A stretch of DNA of 26,320 bases from IMG/VR virus record IMGVR_UViG_3300029787_000276, positions 1-26,320 of that record; one strand, given 5' to 3'. The translations under genes and the position numbers were made by a program. The number at the start of each line of letters is the position of its first letter. Position 1 is the stretch's first letter. Under the pieces are notes generated by a model, which was not told the origin of the DNA, did no database searches, and saw nothing but the letters and a program-made list of their open reading frames with translations. Source of the stretch: a virus. This document shows, in pieces, positions 2,711 to 19,789 of this stretch.

Positions 2711-4166
2711 ATTTTCGTTTTTCTCTTCCTTCCATGTCATCTTCGTCATCATGCAAAGAAATAAAGCTTCCCTGCCTGTATCTTAACAGTGCTAAGGTGG
2801 TTGCGTCAACAAGATCATCGTGTTCTCCATAAGGAAAAGATGCTAACTCTTCTTGCACTTCTTCAGCCCAATCGTGCTCTGTTCTCCATACGTGGCCAGC
2901 TTCAAAGATAGGGGAAACAGAATTTAATCGAACATGTTTATCCATACCACGGTTAGGAGAGAAAGCTTGAGCGTACACTCCAAATCGCCTGAGCTCCTGT
3001 ATCAAGGGTGTCCCTGATGCTTTTGCTTCAATAATCACACTATCAGGGTTGTATATCTGAAGTTGTTCCTTTGCGACCTGTTTAAGCTCAGGAAAATCCC
3101 ATCTACCTTTTCGAGAGTTCAATAATATCAAATGAGTCTCAGTTCCTTCGTTTGGATGAAACACTCCCCAAGTTGTAATAGCTGAATAGTCAGCAGACTC
3201 CTTTTTTGAGAAAGCAGTATCATAACTTTGAATAGTATAAGCACACTCAGGTGGGTCATCCTTTTTCCAAATGTTCCACCATTCACGTTTAATGATACTT
3301 GTGCCATCAAAAGTAGGATTTTGTTGCCATTGTGCGCTCCACTTGGTTGGAACAAGAGAAGCTTTTACTTTATCAAGCTCATTAAGCTTCCAATACTGTG
3401 GCCAAATAGGTTTTCTCTTCTTTTCGTCATCATCATCTAAAATTGCCGGGAATTCTATGACATCCCACTTGTCTGCTTTCATATCTCCCATCTTTTTAAT
3501 CAAATTTCCTGTAAGATCCTTGTTTGACCAACGAGTCATAACAATAACAATACTTCCCCCAGGTTGCATACGCTGTCTAGGTCCTGATGTGTACCATTCG
3601 TAGGCGTTATCCATGGCTGTATCAGACAAAGCATCTTGTTCACTATGTGGATCATCGATAATTAATAGATCAGCACCCCTTCCTGTAATAGCACCACCAA
3701 CACCTGCCGCGAAATACTCACCTCCAAGGTTAGTTTCCCATCTTCCTGCTGCTTGATTATCAGTTCTAAGAGATACATCAGGAAATACTCCACGATACTC
3801 TTTGGTGTTCATTAAGTTTCTAACTTTTCTACCAAATCGAATAGCAAGTTCACCTGTGTGAGTCGCTTGAATAATTTTTAGCCGGGGATTTTGCCCTATC
3901 ATCCATGCCGGGAATAAAAATGAGGCAAACTCACTTTTTGTGTGTCGTGGAGGCATGTTCACAATCAACCTTTGATTCTTTCCTGTCAAAAACTTTTGAA
4001 ATTTTTCTGCAATCTTCTTGTGATGTGGTCCTTCTACAAACTCAGGCCACATAGATTTAACAAATCGCATGAAAGTACCACGTGCTTGTTCTTGTTCCAC
4101 TCTCTTTCTAAGCAATATCATCGCCTTTAATTGATTAGGATCTAGTTTTGAATAGTCTGTGTGCAT
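2697..4166 (-). CDS. terL: Terminase large subunit (packaging ATPase and nuclease)
   Basis: The protein has 489 residues, normal length for TerL. The ATPase shows a Walker A variant MPPRHTKSE (71-79), Walker B LLIIDDP (167-173) and a coupling motif VMTRW (209-213). The C-terminal RNase H-like nuclease shows D316 (SYDTA), E380 (VIIEAK) and the D450/D451/D454 cluster (HDDLVDA). TerL pumps DNA into the prohead through the portal and cuts the concatemer. TAGGAGT ends five bases before the ATG. Upstream lies a 212-base gap with an odd GC-rich block, described separately. The downstream TerS overlaps its 3' end. Confidence 0.95.
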   Translation of the reverse strand: MHTDYSKLDPNQLKAMILLRKRVEQEQARGTFMRFVKSMWPEFVEGPHHKKIAEKFQKFLTGKNQRLIVNMPPRHTKSEFASFLFPAWMIGQNPRLKIIQATHTGELAIRFGRKVRNLMNTKEYRGVFPDVSLRTDNQAAGRWETNLGGEYFAAGVGGAITGRGADLLIIDDPHSEQDALSDTAMDNAYEWYTSGPRQRMQPGGSIVIVMTRWSNKDLTGNLIKKMGDMKADKWDVIEFPAILDDDDEKKRKPIWPQYWKLNELDKVKASLVPTKWSAQWQQNPTFDGTSIIKREWWNIWKKDDPPECAYTIQSYDTAFSKKESADYSAITTWGVFHPNEGTETHLILLNSRKGRWDFPELKQVAKEQLQIYNPDSVIIEAKASGTPLIQELRRFGVYAQAFSPNRGMDKHVRLNSVSPIFEAGHVWRTEHDWAEEVQEELASFPYGEHDDLVDATTLALLRYRQGSFISLHDDEDDMEGREKRKYEYY

Positions 4167-5700: not shown

Positions 5701-5765
5701 TTTTTAATAAGGTCACTAAGTTGGCCTTATTATGAATACGTAAGTATTCAGAAAGAGAGCAAACG
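5701..5765 (+). repeat. Double-hairpin intergenic element, copy 1
   Basis: Hairpin 1 is AATAAGGTC (5706-5714) with GGCCTTATT (5723-5731), nine pairs including one G-U. Its sequence differs from the other copies but the fold is kept. Hairpin 2 is GAATAC-GTAA-GTATTC (5734-5749). The conserved translation start AGAAAGAGAGCAAACG follows, directly before ATG 5766. The other copies begin with the TAAATA stop-codon box, which is absent here because no gene precedes this copy. Confidence 0.85.
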
Positions 5766-6056: not shown

Positions 6057-6119
6057 ATACTTTTGATTACTCGTTTTGAGTAATCATGAATATTTATTTA
6101 TTCAGAAAGAGAGCAAACG
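6054..6119 (+). repeat. Double-hairpin intergenic element, copy 2
   Basis: It begins with the stop codon of the upstream gene (TAAATA). Hairpin 1 is TGATTACTC (6064-6072), loop GTTTT, GAGTAATCA (6078-6086). Hairpin 2 is GAATA (6088-6092) with TATTC (6099-6103). AGAAAGAGAGCAAACG and ATG 6120 follow. Hairpin 1 has no U-tract after it, so it is not a standard terminator. Confidence 0.9.
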
Positions 6120-6850: not shown

Positions 6851-6913
6851 ATACTTTTGATTACTCGATCTGAGTAATCATGAATATTTATATATTCAGA
6901 AAGAGAGCAAACG
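6848..6913 (+). repeat. Double-hairpin intergenic element, copy 4
   Basis: It starts with the stop TAA of the gene before. Hairpin 1 is TGATTACTC (6858-6866), loop GATCT, GAGTAATCA (6872-6880). Hairpin 2 is GAATAT-TTAT-ATATTC (6882-6897). AGAAAGAGAGCAAACG precedes ATG 6914. Confidence 0.9.
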
Positions 6914-7186: not shown

Positions 7187-7256
7187 ATACTTTTGATTAC
7201 TCGATCTGAGTAATCATGAATATTTATTTATTCAAATACAGAAAGAGAGCAAAACA
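7184..7256 (+). repeat. Double-hairpin intergenic element, copy 5
   Basis: Hairpin 1 is identical to copy 4 (TGATTACTC 7194-7202, GAGTAATCA 7208-7216). Hairpin 2 is GAATA (7218-7222) with TATTC (7229-7233). Six extra bases (AAATAC) separate it from AGAAAGAGAGCAAAACA and ATG 7257, so the spacing between fold and ribosome site can vary. Confidence 0.88.
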
Positions 7257-7715
7257 ATGCAAATCAAACTAGTAAACAAAAACGAAAAGTTGTTGCCTAA
7301 CAAAGTTGGCAAACATTTCGGAAGCGTCAACAATTGGATCGCTTCTATAACTTGGTATCCATACGATGCCTTGACCATTGGCAACGGTGCGACAGCCTAT
7401 TTTTGGTCGGACCGACACGCTTGTACGGTTGTTGAAATCTTCAACCGTAATAAAAAACGCTACGTTGTGGTTCAACAAGACCACGCCAAGCGTACCGATA
7501 AGAATGGCTTTTCAGAAAGTCAGACTTATGACTTCACTCCTAACCCTAAGGGTAGGAAATTCATTTCTGAGGTTCTCGACATCGAGACTGAAGACGGTCA
7601 ACGAGGCTTTATCTTAGAGCCTAGAGTATTCAACCCTAAGACTAATCGTTTTAGGAAAGAGGGTACTCGTATTGGCCTCGGTCAACGGTCCGAGTATTGG
7701 GACCCCTCATTCTAA
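7257..7715 (+). CDS. Conserved phage hypothetical protein (ends near LGQRSEYWDPSF)
   Basis: The 152-residue protein looks beta-rich: an early ITWYPYDALTIGNGATAYFWSDRHACTVVEI part, then strands around YVVVQQDHAKR, and a C-terminal LGQRSEYWDPSF. I recall similar proteins in many marine phages, with a conserved ending resembling LGxRxxYxDPSF, always without known function. The gene is visibly richer in G+C than its neighbours in the cassette array (for example 7315-7420), suggesting separate acquisition. CGGTCAACGGTCC (7679-7691) also occurs at 5111-5123. A double stop TAATAA ends it, the second TAA opening repeat copy 6. Confidence 0.78.
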   Translation: MQIKLVNKNEKLLPNKVGKHFGSVNNWIASITWYPYDALTIGNGATAYFWSDRHACTVVEIFNRNKKRYVVVQQDHAKRTDKNGFSESQTYDFTPNPKGRKFISEVLDIETEDGQRGFILEPRVFNPKTNRFRKEGTRIGLGQRSEYWDPSF

Positions 7716-7770
7716 TAAATATTTTTGATTACTCGCTATTGGGTAATCATGAATATTTACGGATATTCAA
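7716..7770 (+). repeat. Double-hairpin intergenic element, copy 6 (last, diverged downstream)
   Basis: It begins TAAATA after a TAA stop. Hairpin 1 is TGATTACTC (7726-7734) with GGGTAATCA (7741-7749), including a G-U pair. Hairpin 2 is GAATAT-TTACGG-ATATTC (7751-7768). The usual AGAAAGAGAGCAAACG-ATG is missing. AACGAGAAGCG follows, then a 19-codon frame. This marks the end of the array. Confidence 0.87.
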
Positions 7771-9069: not shown

Positions 9070-9357
9070 ATGGCAGATCATATAAATAACTTAGTCGAGA
9101 TTTACGATCGTTGGCTAAGTAAAGAAGAAAACAAAAACGTAGATAAAGGATCAGCAGATGATGTTCTATATGATAATCTTTTTACAAATTCTTTAACTGA
9201 TTATCAAAAGAAATGGATTGAACGTTTTGTCTATACTTGGGAGTTAGCACAAGAACACGAACAAACACTTCCTCACGTGGTTGAACAAATCAAGGAAGAA
9301 AAACAAAGAGCAAAAGAAGATGCTCTTTATGATATAAAGAGAGAATATGAAAAATAA
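9070..9357 (+). CDS. Hypothetical helical protein, 95 residues
   Basis: The protein begins MADHINNLVEIYDRWLSKEE and ends in a charged helix KEEKQRAKEDALYDIKREYEK, probably coiled coil. ATG 9070 follows AGAAAGGAAAATATA. An in-frame ATG at 9025 would overlap the preceding gene and lacks a good ribosome site, so the later start is preferred. It is the last gene before the ncRNA locus, and its stop is followed after three bases by the long hairpin at 9361. Function unknown. Confidence 0.7.
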   Translation: MADHINNLVEIYDRWLSKEENKNVDKGSADDVLYDNLFTNSLTDYQKKWIERFVYTWELAQEHEQTLPHVVEQIKEEKQRAKEDALYDIKREYEK

Positions 9358-9360
9358 TAT

Positions 9361-9399
9361 ACATTTTCTAAGACTCCGATTTGGGGTCTTAGACAATGT
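9361..9399 (+). repeat. Long hairpin after the 9070 gene, possibly a diverged double-hairpin element
   Basis: ACATT (9361-9365) pairs with AATGT (9395-9399), and TCTAAGACTCC (9367-9377) with GGGGTCTTAGA (9383-9393), loop GATTT. That is 16 pairs with one mismatch and one G-U. It follows a TAA stop by three bases, as hairpin 1 does in copies 2-6, and its loop region (CTCCGATTTGGG) recalls their CTCGATCTGAG. No U-tract follows, so it is more likely a protective or processing hairpin than a terminator. Confidence 0.7.
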
Positions 9400-9760
9400 G
9401 TAATTGATGCTTTTTACATATTGTAGTGGATTGGTTTAAGGGGTTGCCCCTAGTTTTTCACAACCACTTTAAAAAAAGCAAACTAAAAGCAAGGCACGTG
9501 GGTTGTCTATAGTGAACTAAAATGATTTCCTAAGTTTCAAGGGTCATCACCTTGGCTTTCGTTATCAATCTTCACAAACCCACTGACTAAAATAAAATGT
9601 GTGCATACTAAGTACGATTGAGATTGAGAATAATCACTCAATCAATAGACGTATCTATGGTCCCTCCCATTTATAATGGCTTGGGTAGTGCCATACGTGT
9701 AGACACCGAGAGAACTCCGTGGCGAAAATTAAAACTACCCATTGATCAAAATAATTGGTT
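9400..9760 (+). ncRNA. Multi-domain structured RNA (putative)
   Basis: No gene is visible here. Complementary arms are dense: AGTGG 9425-9429 with CCACT 9464-9468 enclosing AGGGG-TTG-CCCCT 9439-9451; GTGGGTT 9498-9504 with AACCCAC 9577-9583, directly enclosing GTGAA 9512-9516 with TTCAC 9571-9575, in turn enclosing CAAGG 9538-9542 with CCTTG 9550-9554; GATTGAG 9616-9622 with CTCAATC 9637-9643; CCATT-TAT-AATGG near 9667-9679; TGGGTAGT 9682-9689 with ACTACCCA 9734-9741 enclosing GCCA 9690-9693 and TGGC 9720-9723. Properly nested arms of this number are hard to explain by chance. No known class is identified. A large phage ncRNA of the GOLLD/ROOL kind is one idea to test. Confidence 0.55.
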
Positions 9761-10811: not shown

Positions 10812-11000
10812 ATGGAAGCAAAAAAGAAAGCACTTTCAAACGGTTGGATAAATAATCTTGATCACTCTTTTAAATATTGGAGTAGTCAAATTAATTTGAA
10901 GCACGTTAAAAACATTCTTGATCAAAAAGAATGGAAAAACAACAATCAGCTTTATTTAAGAAGACTTAAAGCTAATTCACGATTAACGGTCAAGGGCTAA
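10812..11000 (+). CDS. Hypothetical basic protein, 62 residues
   Basis: The protein (MEAKKKALSNGWINNLDHSF... to LTVKG) is basic and rich in lysine, asparagine and tryptophan, with a helical middle. ATG 10812 follows AAGGGAGGCTATAAA. An upstream in-frame start at 10767 lies within the previous gene and is less likely. Function unknown. Confidence 0.65.
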   Translation: MEAKKKALSNGWINNLDHSFKYWSSQINLKHVKNILDQKEWKNNNQLYLRRLKANSRLTVKG

Positions 11001-11010
11001 GGAGGACTTA

Positions 11011-11325
11011 ATGACTTGGACTATACATCGTGGCTATTTGGGAGATCCACAAGGTCTCCCTATAGCTGACAAACTGATTTTTGTAAAACACAAAGACAGA
11101 AGCTACGAAGCAGTCGCTCTTTATACAGGGGAACATCGCAACGTTTATAAGAAAGATAAAAATAAACTTTTCGATTACTTATCGACTCCCCTCGTTTGGA
11201 GCAAAGATCATGTTGAAAATTTTATGCACAAAAATTCAAGATTTATGCAAAGAATTTTTAATCAAAATAACAGGACCCTAGAGATAAAAAAGTTTCTAGA
11301 GTCAGAAATAGAGAGGACTAAATAA
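11011..11325 (+). CDS. Hypothetical protein, 104 residues
   Basis: The protein (MTWTIHRGYLGDPQGLPIAD...) has a likely beta-stranded N-terminal half (KLIFVKHKDRSYEAVALYTG) and a basic helical C-terminal half (FMHKNSRFMQRIFNQNNR, then KKFLESEIERTK). No family is recognised. AAGGAGGACTTA is a perfect-type ribosome site. The stop overlaps the next ATG by one base (TAATG). Confidence 0.7.
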   Translation: MTWTIHRGYLGDPQGLPIADKLIFVKHKDRSYEAVALYTGEHRNVYKKDKNKLFDYLSTPLVWSKDHVENFMHKNSRFMQRIFNQNNRTLEIKKFLESEIERTK

Positions 11326-14861: not shown

Positions 14862-16318
14862 ATTAACCACTCCTTAAATTCTTCACCCATTATTTCAGTG
14901 GCGATGTTAATTTTAGAACGCAGACTTTTAATTATATTTTCGTCTACTGTTCCCTCACAGATAAGATCGACATAAGTCACTTTCTTTTCTGTACCAATTC
15001 TATGATTTCTAGCTTCTGCTTGTTCTCTTATTTCGAGATCATAGTCATTAGAATAAAATATCATAGTACTAGCTATATTTAAAGTAAGACCATATCCCCC
15101 TGTTCTTGGGTGGCCCACTAAAAATCTCATATGATGATCAGGATTTTTAAATCTATCTAAAATCTTAGGTCTTTCTATAGAGGGAGTCTCACCATAAAAA
15201 CCCTCTGCTGAACCTTTTCCATATTTCTTATCTAAGGCTTCTATAACTGTTCTGATATTGTGCCTGTAAGAGCACCATATAATTATTTTTCCGTCAGCCT
15301 CTTCGACTGTATCTATCAATTCTTTAATTCTATTTTCTGAAAAATCAATTAGTTTTCCCTCATCGGTTGTCATGTACCCACAAGATATTTGATGCAGTCT
15401 TTTTAGTTGAGCAATCAATGTAGCAGTGGTTAATTGTTCTCCGTCAATTTCAGCTAATGCTAATTTTTTCATCATCACGTATGCTTTCAATTGGTTATCG
15501 GTCATCGGTACACGTCTCTTTAAATAAATTTTATCAGGCAAATCTAAAGCTTCATCTTTAGTGACACGATAAGAAAAGTCTCTTATCTTTTCTGTCAGCT
15601 CATCTAAACGTTTATACCCTGTCACTTTGTTAAAACTTCTTCCACCAAAACTCATTTTAACTTGATCACAATATCTAGCTCTAAAAGTATAGATAGAACT
15701 GAAACCCAATAGGTCCTCACTTAAAAAAGCACATTGAGAATATAAGTCTTCAGGTGATTTAGTTATAGGAGACCCTGTTAAAATCACTCTATAACGAGCA
15801 TAGGACCCTATCTTAATACATCTCTTAGTTCTTTTAGCTGATCCATTTTTAATTATAGTGGACTCATCAACACACATTAAAGTTTTATCTGTGTATGTAA
15901 ATTTTTCTGCAACGTCACTTCCATTTTTAGTTATGATAGAATCGATATTCATAATTAAAACTTTCAGTTTGTTGTCAGTTGAAAATAATTTCTCTCTAAT
16001 TTCTGCTTGTTCTTTTTTTGTTTTGGCCCCTTCCCAAACATGAACATCGTATTCAATATGCTCTGCTAAATGTTTTGCTAATTCTTCTCGCCAATTATAT
16101 TTAATTCCATTGGGACAAATGACTAAAAGATTACTGACTTTTCCATTGTCAAATAAAATTGAAATACCGTCTATTAAAACTTTTGTTTTACCACAACCCA
16201 TTTCCATAAACAAAGCATACTCAGGTTTATCTTTATCAAATGAATTCATCATTCCCGCAAGACCCACCAATTGATGTTCCATAGGCTTAGTTTTGAACTT
16301 GTATTTTTCTACCAACAT
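14858..16318 (-). CDS. SNF2-family (SF2) helicase/translocase
   Basis: The 486-residue protein carries SF2 motifs: MEMGCGKTK (38-46, Walker A), LLVICP (64-69), DEST (151-154, in place of DEAH), LTGSPI (180-185), and near the C-terminus EQAEARNHRIG (432-442, motif VI). It resembles the two-RecA-domain ATPases of phage SNF2-like proteins, without extra domains. Such proteins move along double-stranded DNA and may remodel forks or recombination intermediates. ATG 16318 is chosen: the frame runs on to 16372, but that would cross the divergent gene starting at 16356. No Shine-Dalgarno sequence precedes 16318. It is opposite in direction to the main replication genes. Confidence 0.88.
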   Translation of the reverse strand: MLVEKYKFKTKPMEHQLVGLAGMMNSFDKDKPEYALFMEMGCGKTKVLIDGISILFDNGKVSNLLVICPNGIKYNWREELAKHLAEHIEYDVHVWEGAKTKKEQAEIREKLFSTDNKLKVLIMNIDSIITKNGSDVAEKFTYTDKTLMCVDESTIIKNGSAKRTKRCIKIGSYARYRVILTGSPITKSPEDLYSQCAFLSEDLLGFSSIYTFRARYCDQVKMSFGGRSFNKVTGYKRLDELTEKIRDFSYRVTKDEALDLPDKIYLKRRVPMTDNQLKAYVMMKKLALAEIDGEQLTTATLIAQLKRLHQISCGYMTTDEGKLIDFSENRIKELIDTVEEADGKIIIWCSYRHNIRTVIEALDKKYGKGSAEGFYGETPSIERPKILDRFKNPDHHMRFLVGHPRTGGYGLTLNIASTMIFYSNDYDLEIREQAEARNHRIGTEKKVTYVDLICEGTVDENIIKSLRSKINIATEIMGEEFKEWLI

Positions 16319-17267: not shown

Positions 17268-18095
17268 ATGACAGAGACAGTAAAAAAGCAAGTAGCGAAA
17301 AGCGAAAATAAAGGAGTCGTGCAATTAGGTGCACTTCTAAAATCAGCACCACTTTCAAAAAGAGAAGCTGATGATTATCAAATACCTTATTTAAATATGT
17401 TAAGTAAGGGCTCACCTCAGTGTGAGGACGATAATGAAAAGTACATTAAAGATGCTAAGAAGGGACAGATCTTTAATACAGTCACAGAAAATCTCTATGA
17501 CGTTCTAACAGTCTTACCTGTTTATTACAGAAGAAGATATGTTGAATGGAACAATGATAGATCCAAAGGTGCACCTGTTAATGAATACACACCTGAAGAA
17601 TTTCAAGCTTTTCAAAAAGACGGAAAAGTTGTTCGTGGAGATGACTACAAAGATCGATTTGTTGGTAAACCTGAGACTTATATTGAAAACACTGCTGAAC
17701 ATTACGTTATCGCAATTGACGGTCAGGGTTGGTATAAGGCTCTCATTAAAATGAAGGGTTCACAACTTAAAAAATCTAGACAGTGGAATTCAGTAATGGC
17801 TAATCAAAGACGTGTGGAGGGTGATGAAATATATCAGCCAAAAGACTTTGCAATGTCTTATAACTTGTCAGGAAGACCTGAAAAAAATGATCAGGGAACT
17901 TGGCATGGTTGGGTTATTAGTCAAAACAAATGGGTTGACGAATTAGGTTTAGCTAAGGTTGAGGACATCATAGCTGACGCAAGTCAATTCGAAAAAAGTA
18001 TTCATAGTGGGGAGTTAAAAGTTGCTCCTCAGGCAGATGAAACAAGTTCCCCTAAGGGGGAGTCCTCGCAGAACGGTGATAACATTCCGTTCTGA
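17268..18095 (+). CDS. Single-stranded DNA-binding-like protein with IPF tail
   Basis: The 275-residue protein has a basic N-terminus, a central region rich in aromatic and basic residues (VYYRRRYVEW at about 85, then the WYKALIKMKGSQLKKSRQW region), and a disordered tail (SSPKGESSQNGD) ending NIPF. Bacterial SSB ends in an acidic IPF tip that recruits partner proteins, and this tail looks like a mimic (GDNIPF). Position just before primase, helicase and polymerase genes supports an SSB role. The core fold is not proven by motif. The stop is followed within one base by the structured RNA element at 18096. Other phage SSB families have a similar size and tail. Confidence 0.65.
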   Translation: MTETVKKQVAKSENKGVVQLGALLKSAPLSKREADDYQIPYLNMLSKGSPQCEDDNEKYIKDAKKGQIFNTVTENLYDVLTVLPVYYRRRYVEWNNDRSKGAPVNEYTPEEFQAFQKDGKVVRGDDYKDRFVGKPETYIENTAEHYVIAIDGQGWYKALIKMKGSQLKKSRQWNSVMANQRRVEGDEIYQPKDFAMSYNLSGRPEKNDQGTWHGWVISQNKWVDELGLAKVEDIIADASQFEKSIHSGELKVAPQADETSSPKGESSQNGDNIPF

Positions 18096-18219
18096 TTAAT
18101 AGCCGCGTAAGGTAAGAGCGTGTTTCTTTTGTTCACGTTCTTGGTTTGATCTTGGCACGTATTTTTCGAGCCTCCTTTCGATTCGTGCCTTGATCAAATT
18201 ATTTATTTAAAGCTATTAA
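18096..18219 (+). ncRNA. Three-helix RNA element with anti-Shine-Dalgarno-like loop
   Basis: P1 is TTAATAGC (18096-18103) with GCTATTAA (18212-18219). P2 is AAGAGCGTG (18114-18122) with CACGTTCTT (18134-18142), nine pairs with one G-U. P3 is TTTGATC (18145-18151) with GATCAAA (18192-18198), then a TT/TT internal loop, then GGCACG (18154-18159) with CGTGCC (18184-18189). TCGA/TCGA (18166-18169 with 18178-18181) caps P3 and exposes GCCTCCTT, which resembles the 16S anti-Shine-Dalgarno sequence. The primase ribosome site GAGGG (18221-18225) lies two bases after P1 and could pair with CCTC in this loop as a pseudoknot. Probably a cis-regulator of primase translation. Confidence 0.7.
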
Positions 18220-18229
18220 CGAGGGTACT

Positions 18230-19789
18230 ATGGAGCCAATATTAGTCACCAAATTTAAAGATATATTCACAGGGTTGGAGAGAGCCCATGGTGTATTTGA
18301 AAAAAAGAATGAGCCACAAGAAGGTTTGAAAGTGGAAGCTCATATGAAAACGGTCCACGAGCCACCGTCCTTGGATAAATTTGAAAGACATTTAAAAGGT
18401 GAATATCCTGCTATGGGTATCGTACCTATAAACGATGAGGATAAATGTAAGTTTGGTGCAATAGATATTGATATCTACCCTCTTGACCACAAAGAATTAC
18501 TTAAAAAAATAAAACAAAAAAAGTTTCCATTAATTATGTGTCTATCAAAAAGTGGTGGTGCACATTTATATTTATTTACAAAAGATTATGTCTCAGCAAA
18601 AGACATGCAAACTAAACTTAGCGAAATGGCAACTGCTATTGGCTATCCTAAAGCTGAAGTATTCCCTAAACAAATTGAGTTATATCAAAGAGAAGGGGAA
18701 GAAAAAAGAGATACAGGAAGTTGGATTAATCTACCTTATCACGGAAGAAGTCGTTATGGACTTAACAGTGTTGGTAGTGCCCTCAGTTTAGAAGAGTTTC
18801 TTTCTTACTACGATAACCTTGTTGTTGGTGCTCTCAAGTCGATTAAAACCGATTTCAAGAACGAGGTTATTAAAGACGGACCTCCATGCCTACAAATACT
18901 TACTGAACAGGGTGTTGCCGATGGCTCTCGCAACAACGCTCTGTTCAATGTAGGCGTATATTATCGTAAAGCAGATCCTGATAGTTATAAAGAGCTAATA
19001 GAAGAGTATAATAGAAGTTATATAACACCACCTTTAAAATCAGACGAAGTATTGATAGTTATAAAACAAGTTAGTCAAAGTGATAATAACGGTGCTCCTA
19101 AGTATATGTATCGATGTTCTCAGCCTCCTATTGAGTCTTTATGTAATAAAAGACTTTGTAAGAAAAGAAAGTTTGGCATTGGTAGTGAAGGTGATAGAGA
19201 CCACCCTGTCTATTCTGATTTGAAAGTTTATAAATCTGATCCTCCAAGATATTTCCTTAACGTTGATGATAGAAGAATTGAAATATCTAATACTGAAGAT
19301 TTGATGACACATAAAAAAATTATTCAAGCATGTTTAGAACAGCTTAATTCAGGGATTATGAATATGAGTTCTGCTGAGTGGAATCAAACATACAGTGATT
19401 TATTCGAGTCTATATCAATAGACTATCCTCCTGAGGAAGTCACAAAGAAAGGTGAGTTTAAAGAACTGTTAGAAGAGTTTTGTTTACACCAAGGAGAGGC
19501 TCTAACTATAGCTGATATATTTCTAGGAAAATCTTACACCGAAGACGGTTTTACTTATTTTGCTTTGAAGGATTTAATGGACCATTTAAAAAGAAACGAT
19601 TTTAAGGAGGCTAGACCTTGGGTGACAATGAGATTGAAAGAAGAATATACTGCTGAAGATTTGATTAAAACTATAAAGAATACAAGAGTGAGATTATGGA
19701 AAATAAAACAACTTACAATTGAAGAAGTTGAATTAGAAGTTCCTGAAATGAAAAAACAAAAAGATATAGAGGAGGATATACCGTTTTGA
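18230..19789 (+). CDS. Archaeo-eukaryotic-type primase (AEP/PrimPol-like)
   Basis: In the 519-residue protein the AEP catalytic set is visible: GAIDIDIYP (76-84, metal ligands D79 and D81), SKSGGAHLYLF (106-116, H112), and WINLPYHGR (165-173). GSRNNALFNVGVYYRK (231-246) looks like a PriCT-type helical domain. YRCSQPPIESLCNKRLC (293-309; C295, C304, C309) looks like a zinc- or cluster-binding site. The C-terminal 200 residues are unassigned. It has no helicase domain, unlike T7 gp4, so the primase and helicase functions are on separate genes here. The last residues, DIEEDIPF, copy the SSB C-terminal tip, and their codons also contain AGGAGG, the ribosome site of the next gene. Translation may be controlled by the RNA element at 18096. 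Confidence 0.85.
   Translation: MEPILVTKFKDIFTGLERAHGVFEKKNEPQEGLKVEAHMKTVHEPPSLDKFERHLKGEYPAMGIVPINDEDKCKFGAIDIDIYPLDHKELLKKIKQKKFPLIMCLSKSGGAHLYLFTKDYVSAKDMQTKLSEMATAIGYPKAEVFPKQIELYQREGEEKRDTGSWINLPYHGRSRYGLNSVGSALSLEEFLSYYDNLVVGALKSIKTDFKNEVIKDGPPCLQILTEQGVADGSRNNALFNVGVYYRKADPDSYKELIEEYNRSYITPPLKSDEVLIVIKQVSQSDNNGAPKYMYRCSQPPIESLCNKRLCKKRKFGIGSEGDRDHPVYSDLKVYKSDPPRYFLNVDDRRIEISNTEDLMTHKKIIQACLEQLNSGIMNMSSAEWNQTYSDLFESISIDYPPEEVTKKGEFKELLEEFCLHQGEALTIADIFLGKSYTEDGFTYFALKDLMDHLKRNDFKEARPWVTMRLKEEYTAEDLIKTIKNTRVRLWKIKQLTIEEVELEVPEMKKQKDIEEDIPF

Follow-up and report, generated by a model that had tools for sequence, protein, structure and literature searches.

A conserved branched RNA between the SSB-like and primase genes of an uncultured phage group, with a proposed role in coupling primase translation to ssb translation

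A conserved branched RNA structure almost certainly occupies the gap between an SSB-like gene (ssb) and a primase gene in a 26-kb viral fragment from an uncultured virus (IMG/VR record IMGVR_UViG_3300029787_000276, positions 1 to 26,320 of which are referred to here as the window). Comparison with relatives identifies its two hairpin arms, P2 and P3, as conserved branched RNA that belongs to the mRNA strand and keeps a fixed place between ssb and primase. The element is a real, covariation-supported phage RNA of no established class; most likely it applies a known principle of control in a new way, one that as far as could be checked has not been described before. We lean, with some reserve, toward the hypothesis that it is a cis-acting mRNA element that would tie translation of the primase to translation of ssb by acting as a coupling lock.

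The 124-nt gap (18096-18219, + strand) has a folding energy of -40.1 kcal/mol, compared with a shuffle mean of -21.6 (z = -5.63; 0 of 200 dinucleotide shuffles were equally low), and P1, P2 and P3 are all present in both its MFE and its centroid structure (Table 1). A preliminary description of this DNA, made from its letters alone, had drawn three nested helices in the gap, which these predictions and the covariation in P2 and P3 bear out. For P3, its two helices around a TT/TT internal loop stand, and the lengths of 7 + 6 bp are corrected to 9 + 6 bp, two G·U pairs having been omitted. It had also equated the element with the gap, which runs from the ssb stop (ending at 18095) to the primase Shine-Dalgarno sequence (SD; GAGG, beginning at 18221); those limits are right for the gap and too narrow for the element, as the predicted structure extends into the ssb coding sequence (18048-18095) and the primase RBS (18220-18225). 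The extended element, from the ssb end to the primase RBS, has a fold z of -5.19. Fold energy alone is not decisive, because several other segments of the record gave similar z-scores in a coarse scan with 16 shuffles each. The other strongly negative segments in that coarse scan were 7516-7760 (+), 9256-9440 (+), 10936-11060, 14956-15080 (-) and 3196-3320 (-).

Table 1. Features of the ssb–primase junction and its flanking genes in the window
Feature	Coordinates	Strand	Basis or remarks
SSB-like gene (ssb), Pam3_Gp34/phrog_2402	17268..18095	+	GDNIPF acidic tip at C-terminus
HP-a, hairpin UCCCC/GGGGA in ssb codons	18048..18061	+	94% of cells paired, nearly invariant; GCAA loop in several relatives
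P0 5' strand, UCCUCG (ssb codons TCC TCG), predicted SD partner	18063..18068	+	Folding with ssb sequence; xCC codon kept
HP-b, 8-bp hairpin, last ssb codons into stop codon	18069..18094	+	98% of cells paired; both sides changed in one pair
P1 5' strand, UUAAUAGC, directly 3' of ssb stop	18096..18103	+	8 bp with 18212-18219, 7 of these in the MFE of the gap alone; core AAUAGC invariant
J1/2, contains GCGUAA	18104..18113	+	GCGUAA kept in most members
P2 hairpin, 9 bp (18114-18122/18134-18142)	18114..18142	+	Sequence highly variable, covariation strong
P3 hairpin, 9 + 6 bp flanking UU/UU internal loop in the window (18143-18159/18184-18200)	18143..18200	+	Strong covariation; tandem U·G/G·U in many relatives
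Apical loop, CCUCCUUU	18171..18178	+	Invariant; anti-SD letters; GCCUCCUU (18170-18177) lies inside the apical loop of P3
P1 3' strand, GCUAUUAA	18212..18219	+	Fold and conservation
P0 3' strand, CGAGGG, the primase Shine-Dalgarno (GAGG 18221-18224), adjoins P1	18220..18225	+	Folding with ssb sequence
AEP primase gene (AEP-TOTE + PriCT_1, phrog_21866), presumed regulated gene	18230..19789	+	Domain and family matches

A scan of the element against Rfam 15 returned no family at gathering score; the best sub-threshold matches were snoRNA models at other positions and arose by chance. A tRNA search of the gap found none, and neither promoter nor terminator was detected in a search of its + strand, on which an intrinsic terminator (a GC-rich hairpin followed by a U-run) is absent, the J3/1 sequence included.

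The arms of the structure are best seen in the relatives. A covariance model built from eight relatives, with the window unseen, finds the window at E ~1e-11 and also finds every other gap of the group to which the window's closest relatives belong (group A, defined below). On the alignment made by covariance model, which comprises 19 distinct rows, 95.0% of cells are paired, compared with 37-46% when the alignment is slid. Both-sided changes occur in 19 of the 31 pairs (nine in P2, ten in P3 and none in P1), and the doubly changed cells number 69 against 18.7 +/- 3.6 in shuffled controls, none of 500 of which reached as high. Since the structure itself had shaped the model alignment, P2 and P3 were also assessed independently of it; cognate P2 and P3 arms outpaired swapped arms (P <= 0.0001), a result that also holds with seven lineage representatives. 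MAFFT with RNAalifold alone misses P2, since this variable arm is misaligned, and segment alignment and a covariance model were used instead. The six core pairs of P1 are invariant in 19 of 19 distinct rows, and P1 shows no covariation because it never varies; on this comparison P1 is conserved, yet not proven by covariation. The preliminary description had proposed an Rfam scan and a covariance search, holding that gaps without compensatory changes or a confident family match would speak against it; P2 and P3 do carry compensatory changes, P1 is invariant, and no Rfam family matches.

Base-pair composition indicates which strand is selected. A hand segmentation gave 355 pairs on the + strand, with 36 G·U and no A·C among them, so that selection acts on the mRNA-sense strand, in agreement with the structured RNA originally proposed; the + strand also folds better than the - strand. 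The tandem U·G/G·U kept in many members points to RNA rather than DNA. These observations weigh against an alternative that we regard as very unlikely, in which the element is a DNA site for single-strand initiation by the phage primase, comparable to ssiA and ssiB of RSF1010. There, too, a folded element adjoins a gene for an AEP-type primase, and RSF1010 RepB' uses a hairpin ssi site (PMC4434180); in our case the AEP primase gene is adjacent and the pyrimidine loop could template a primer. However, the RSF1010 sites are DNA sites of ~40 nt with a hairpin, whereas the covariation found here is RNA-like, with conserved G·U pairs of a kind typical of RNA, and the element is fixed in position relative to a stop codon and an SD. 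In two long relatives the GC skew shows no extremum where the element lies, which is a weak test. A replication origin at the element was considered by the same weak test and rejected, as the skew tracks gene direction.

Protein searches of IMG/VR sorted the relatives by primase identity into group A (89-95%), group B (79-81%), group C (75-77%) and distant phages (33-40%). Among these relatives the three-way junction is confined to group A, where it occupies the same place between ssb and primase and is shared by 18 further distinct relatives besides the window. Two pattern scans of all viral contigs returned only this locus and two chance matches. Run on ten long records, the covariance model found one copy in each of seven group A records and no element in the three from group C. 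A search for prophage copies found no primase relatives among genome contigs.

Structure of other kinds is predicted at the same place outside group A. In the group B gap, AUCAUUUAUU and AAUAAAUGAAUGAU are predicted to pair and form local structure at the primase start; local structure is likewise predicted around the primase AUG in group C; and distant phages, the named phages DSL-LC04 and HTVC027P among them, usually carry one strong hairpin in the gap. Because sister groups and distant phages also have predicted structure there, a structured ssb–primase gap is a recurrent feature, of which the three-way junction is, by this comparison, the version of group A. The individual gaps differ in detail. 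Two group B records (L024 2865-3030 and L025 2906-3030) have different gap hairpins, among them one that covers the primase AUG, and a loop that contains CUCC; in L077 (2940-3020) a long predicted helix joins the last ssb codons and the stop to the primase start codons and encloses a terminator-like hairpin; and in the Pelagibacter phage HTVC027P (L140 1452-1503) the GC-rich gap hairpin includes GGAGG, a possible primase SD.

That most distant relatives have one strong hairpin in this gap, and that the gap hairpins of three of them (L084, L085 and L099) look like typical terminators, would also be expected if the hairpins served to end or protect the ssb message, through RNase III cleavage or as a barrier to exonucleases, and so gave much SSB and little primase. 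We think such a role in message processing or stability unlikely, as the window gap has no + strand terminator and as the invariant loop, the invariant P1 and the SD pairing described next would be left unexplained.

When ssb sequence is included in the fold, the primase SD is predicted to pair with codons near the end of ssb in a helix, P0, that is contiguous with P1 on the 3' side and has HP-b within it. With 50 nt of ssb included, the most probable partner of the SD is CCUC at the same ssb codons in 15 of 15 sequences, across which the unpaired probability of the SD is 0.00-0.28; in the same context the accessibility of the window's primase SD (0.01) is the lowest among the window's 25 SDs. 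A block on CCUC carries an energy cost of 1.6-6.8 kcal/mol. An xCC codon is kept at the P0 site in 11 of 11 representatives despite a Ser/Ala change, and the codons concerned are rare (TCC, 12 of 265 Ser; GCC, 20 of 240 Ala). When only these two codons are swapped for synonyms, the natural P0-site codons lock the SD better than the synonym mean in 10 of 12 relatives; in L004 and L014 the lock is no better than with synonyms. Natural ssb ends are more stable than synonymous recodings in all 12 (P from 0 to 0.093), and synonymous conservation is raised over the last 30 ssb codons.

Other results temper the case for P0. Once the last 17 ssb codons are recoded throughout, the SD is often able to pair elsewhere, and measured against these full recodings the natural sequence is significantly more locked only in the window and in L001; in folds that lack the CCUC segment, the partners of the SD include the IPF-tip codons. 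The four core pairs of P0 are invariant, so the lock has no covariation to offer, and the covariation signal of HP-b is weak because the protein sequence constrains it. Sister group B lacks the P0 pairing and has AAGGG as its SD. Because of the invariant P0, the recoding results, L004 and L014, and group B, we hold the coupling lock only as the reading that we lean toward.

The SD had originally been assigned a different partner, the CCUC of the P3 apical loop, in a pseudoknot that might be controlled by a ligand. CCUC and GAGG do occur in every member, but their pairing amounts to ~4 bp, the complementarity is not above chance (P mostly 0.1-0.7), and the nested P0 pairing competes with it; since both strands are invariant, loop–SD pairing also lies beyond the reach of covariation. 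For the ligand-controlled form there is no ligand candidate, and both neighbouring genes serve replication. CCUC in the last ssb codons is the better-supported partner, and we consider the pseudoknot highly improbable. A second candidate pseudoknot, between the P2 loop and J3/1 (CCUCC/GGAGG in L010, L011, L016 and L018), was rejected, as cognate sequences paired no better than swapped ones (P = 0.28).

The position of the element suits control of primase translation, as was first suggested, and the coupling lock would work as follows. P1 is predicted to fold away the 124-nt gap and so to place the primase SD beside the end of the ssb gene, where the SD and the last ssb codons would form P0, a helix stacked on P1 and closed around the hairpin at the ssb stop. 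In untranslated mRNA the primase start site would be closed. A ribosome that reads to the end of ssb and stops there would melt P0, HP-b and the adjoining strand of P1, freeing the SD for a new 30S subunit, so that only messages under translation for ssb would yield primase, and would yield it at a lower rate. A second, backup partner for the SD may be offered by the CCUCCUUU loop.

Translational coupling through mRNA structure has been best worked out in small RNA phages, and the coat–replicase pair of MS2 is the textbook parallel. In MS2, as is proposed for the present element, translation of the upstream gene undoes the structure that masks the start region downstream, and a bulk nucleic-acid-binding protein is linked to a replication enzyme. 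Unlike that precedent (PMC9894550), the present case concerns a double-stranded DNA phage, the predicted lock is held by a nested three-way junction that fills a 124-nt gap, the sequence is unrelated, and the MS2 repressor is without a demonstrated counterpart. Two routes to coupling are recognised, unwinding by upstream ribosomes and re-initiation (PMC7538156). Re-initiation would be less likely here because 134 nt separate the ssb stop from the primase start, and the predicted layout of P0, P1 and HP-b at the stop codon suits the unwinding route. If the coupling lock is correct, the element would be a covariation-supported RNA device that couples two replication genes in an uncultured dsDNA phage clade, and it would do so at the ssb/primase junction, where stoichiometry matters most, SSB being needed in bulk and primase sparingly. 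The hairpins in the same gap of far relatives raise the general and testable question of whether phages adjust the SSB:primase ratio by mRNA structure at this junction, and a new RNA family is gained for annotation.

Coupling alone does not explain why P1 and the CCUCCUUU loop never vary. The letters of this loop are those of the 16S rRNA 3' tail (the anti-SD), and the anti-SD-like apical loop pointed out in the preliminary description proves to be invariant. We consider it quite unlikely that the loop, presented on P3, acts as a mimic of that tail, competing for the SD against the ribosome or the ssb-codon strand, or binding a factor that recognises the 16S 3' end, and that it thus senses the supply of ribosomes or SSB and switches the primase; if true, the element would represent a new class of switch, based on an anti-SD mimic. 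A phage-encoded bS21 was sought as a partner for such a mimic in 11 records, and none was found.

The same invariant loop, together with a U-rich bulge conserved among element members and the adjoining SSB-like gene, could instead mark an operator for the SSB-like protein, excess SSB putatively binding the pyrimidine-rich apical loop and the bulge, spreading over the RBS and repressing the primase to tune replication. There are precedents in T4, where a pseudoknot operator in the gp32 mRNA is bound by gp32 itself, and in M13, where gp5 acts as a repressor of the message for the replication protein gp2 (PMC535899, PMC5405960). Like the T4 gene 32 operator, with its pseudoknot and A/U-rich leader, the element is a structured RNA beside an SSB gene and near an RBS, but it lies 3' of the SSB gene, would act on the primase, and has no supported pseudoknot. 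With the M13 gene V protein and its gene II operator, the message for another replication protein is under the control of an SSB, as it would be here; the operator differs, and SSB binding is putative here. Since the known cases are 5' leader operators, and since distant phages with related SSBs carry other hairpins and loops, we find an SSB operator rather unlikely. SSB-mediated repression could, by analogy with coat repression in MS2, be superimposed on coupling.

The flanking genes agree with their first assignments, an SSB-like gene upstream and an AEP primase downstream. An acidic tip (DNIPF in the window) ending in PF closes the SSB-like protein in most relatives, and its predicted structure has a pLDDT of 78. 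Its best PDB fold matches are mostly RPA or RPA-containing and individually weak (E 0.009-0.08), and two of the viral matches carry the name single-stranded DNA-binding protein; a search by sequence for relatives with solved structures found none. From the acidic tip, the weak RPA matches and the viral matches, "SSB-like" is therefore a fair name, not proof. Downstream of the primase follow, in order, a GNAT-like protein, a UvrD-like helicase and a family A DNA polymerase.

Several further features of these genes and of the window were observed. The primase C-terminus is also acidic (...EEDIPF) and resembles the SSB tip, its IPF being nearly invariant in relatives; it may be a mimic of the SSB tail or a competitor with it for a shared partner. 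In the first 15 ssb codons (17268-17312), synonymous identity is 0.94, compared with an average of ~0.62, which suggests a further RNA constraint at the ssb start. Elsewhere, four small ORFs are preceded by a near-identical leader, ttcagaaagagagcaaacg-ATG or a close variant (5735-5765, 6089-6119, 6883-6913 and 7226-7256), which makes a repeated RBS/leader cassette that may include repeated promoters.
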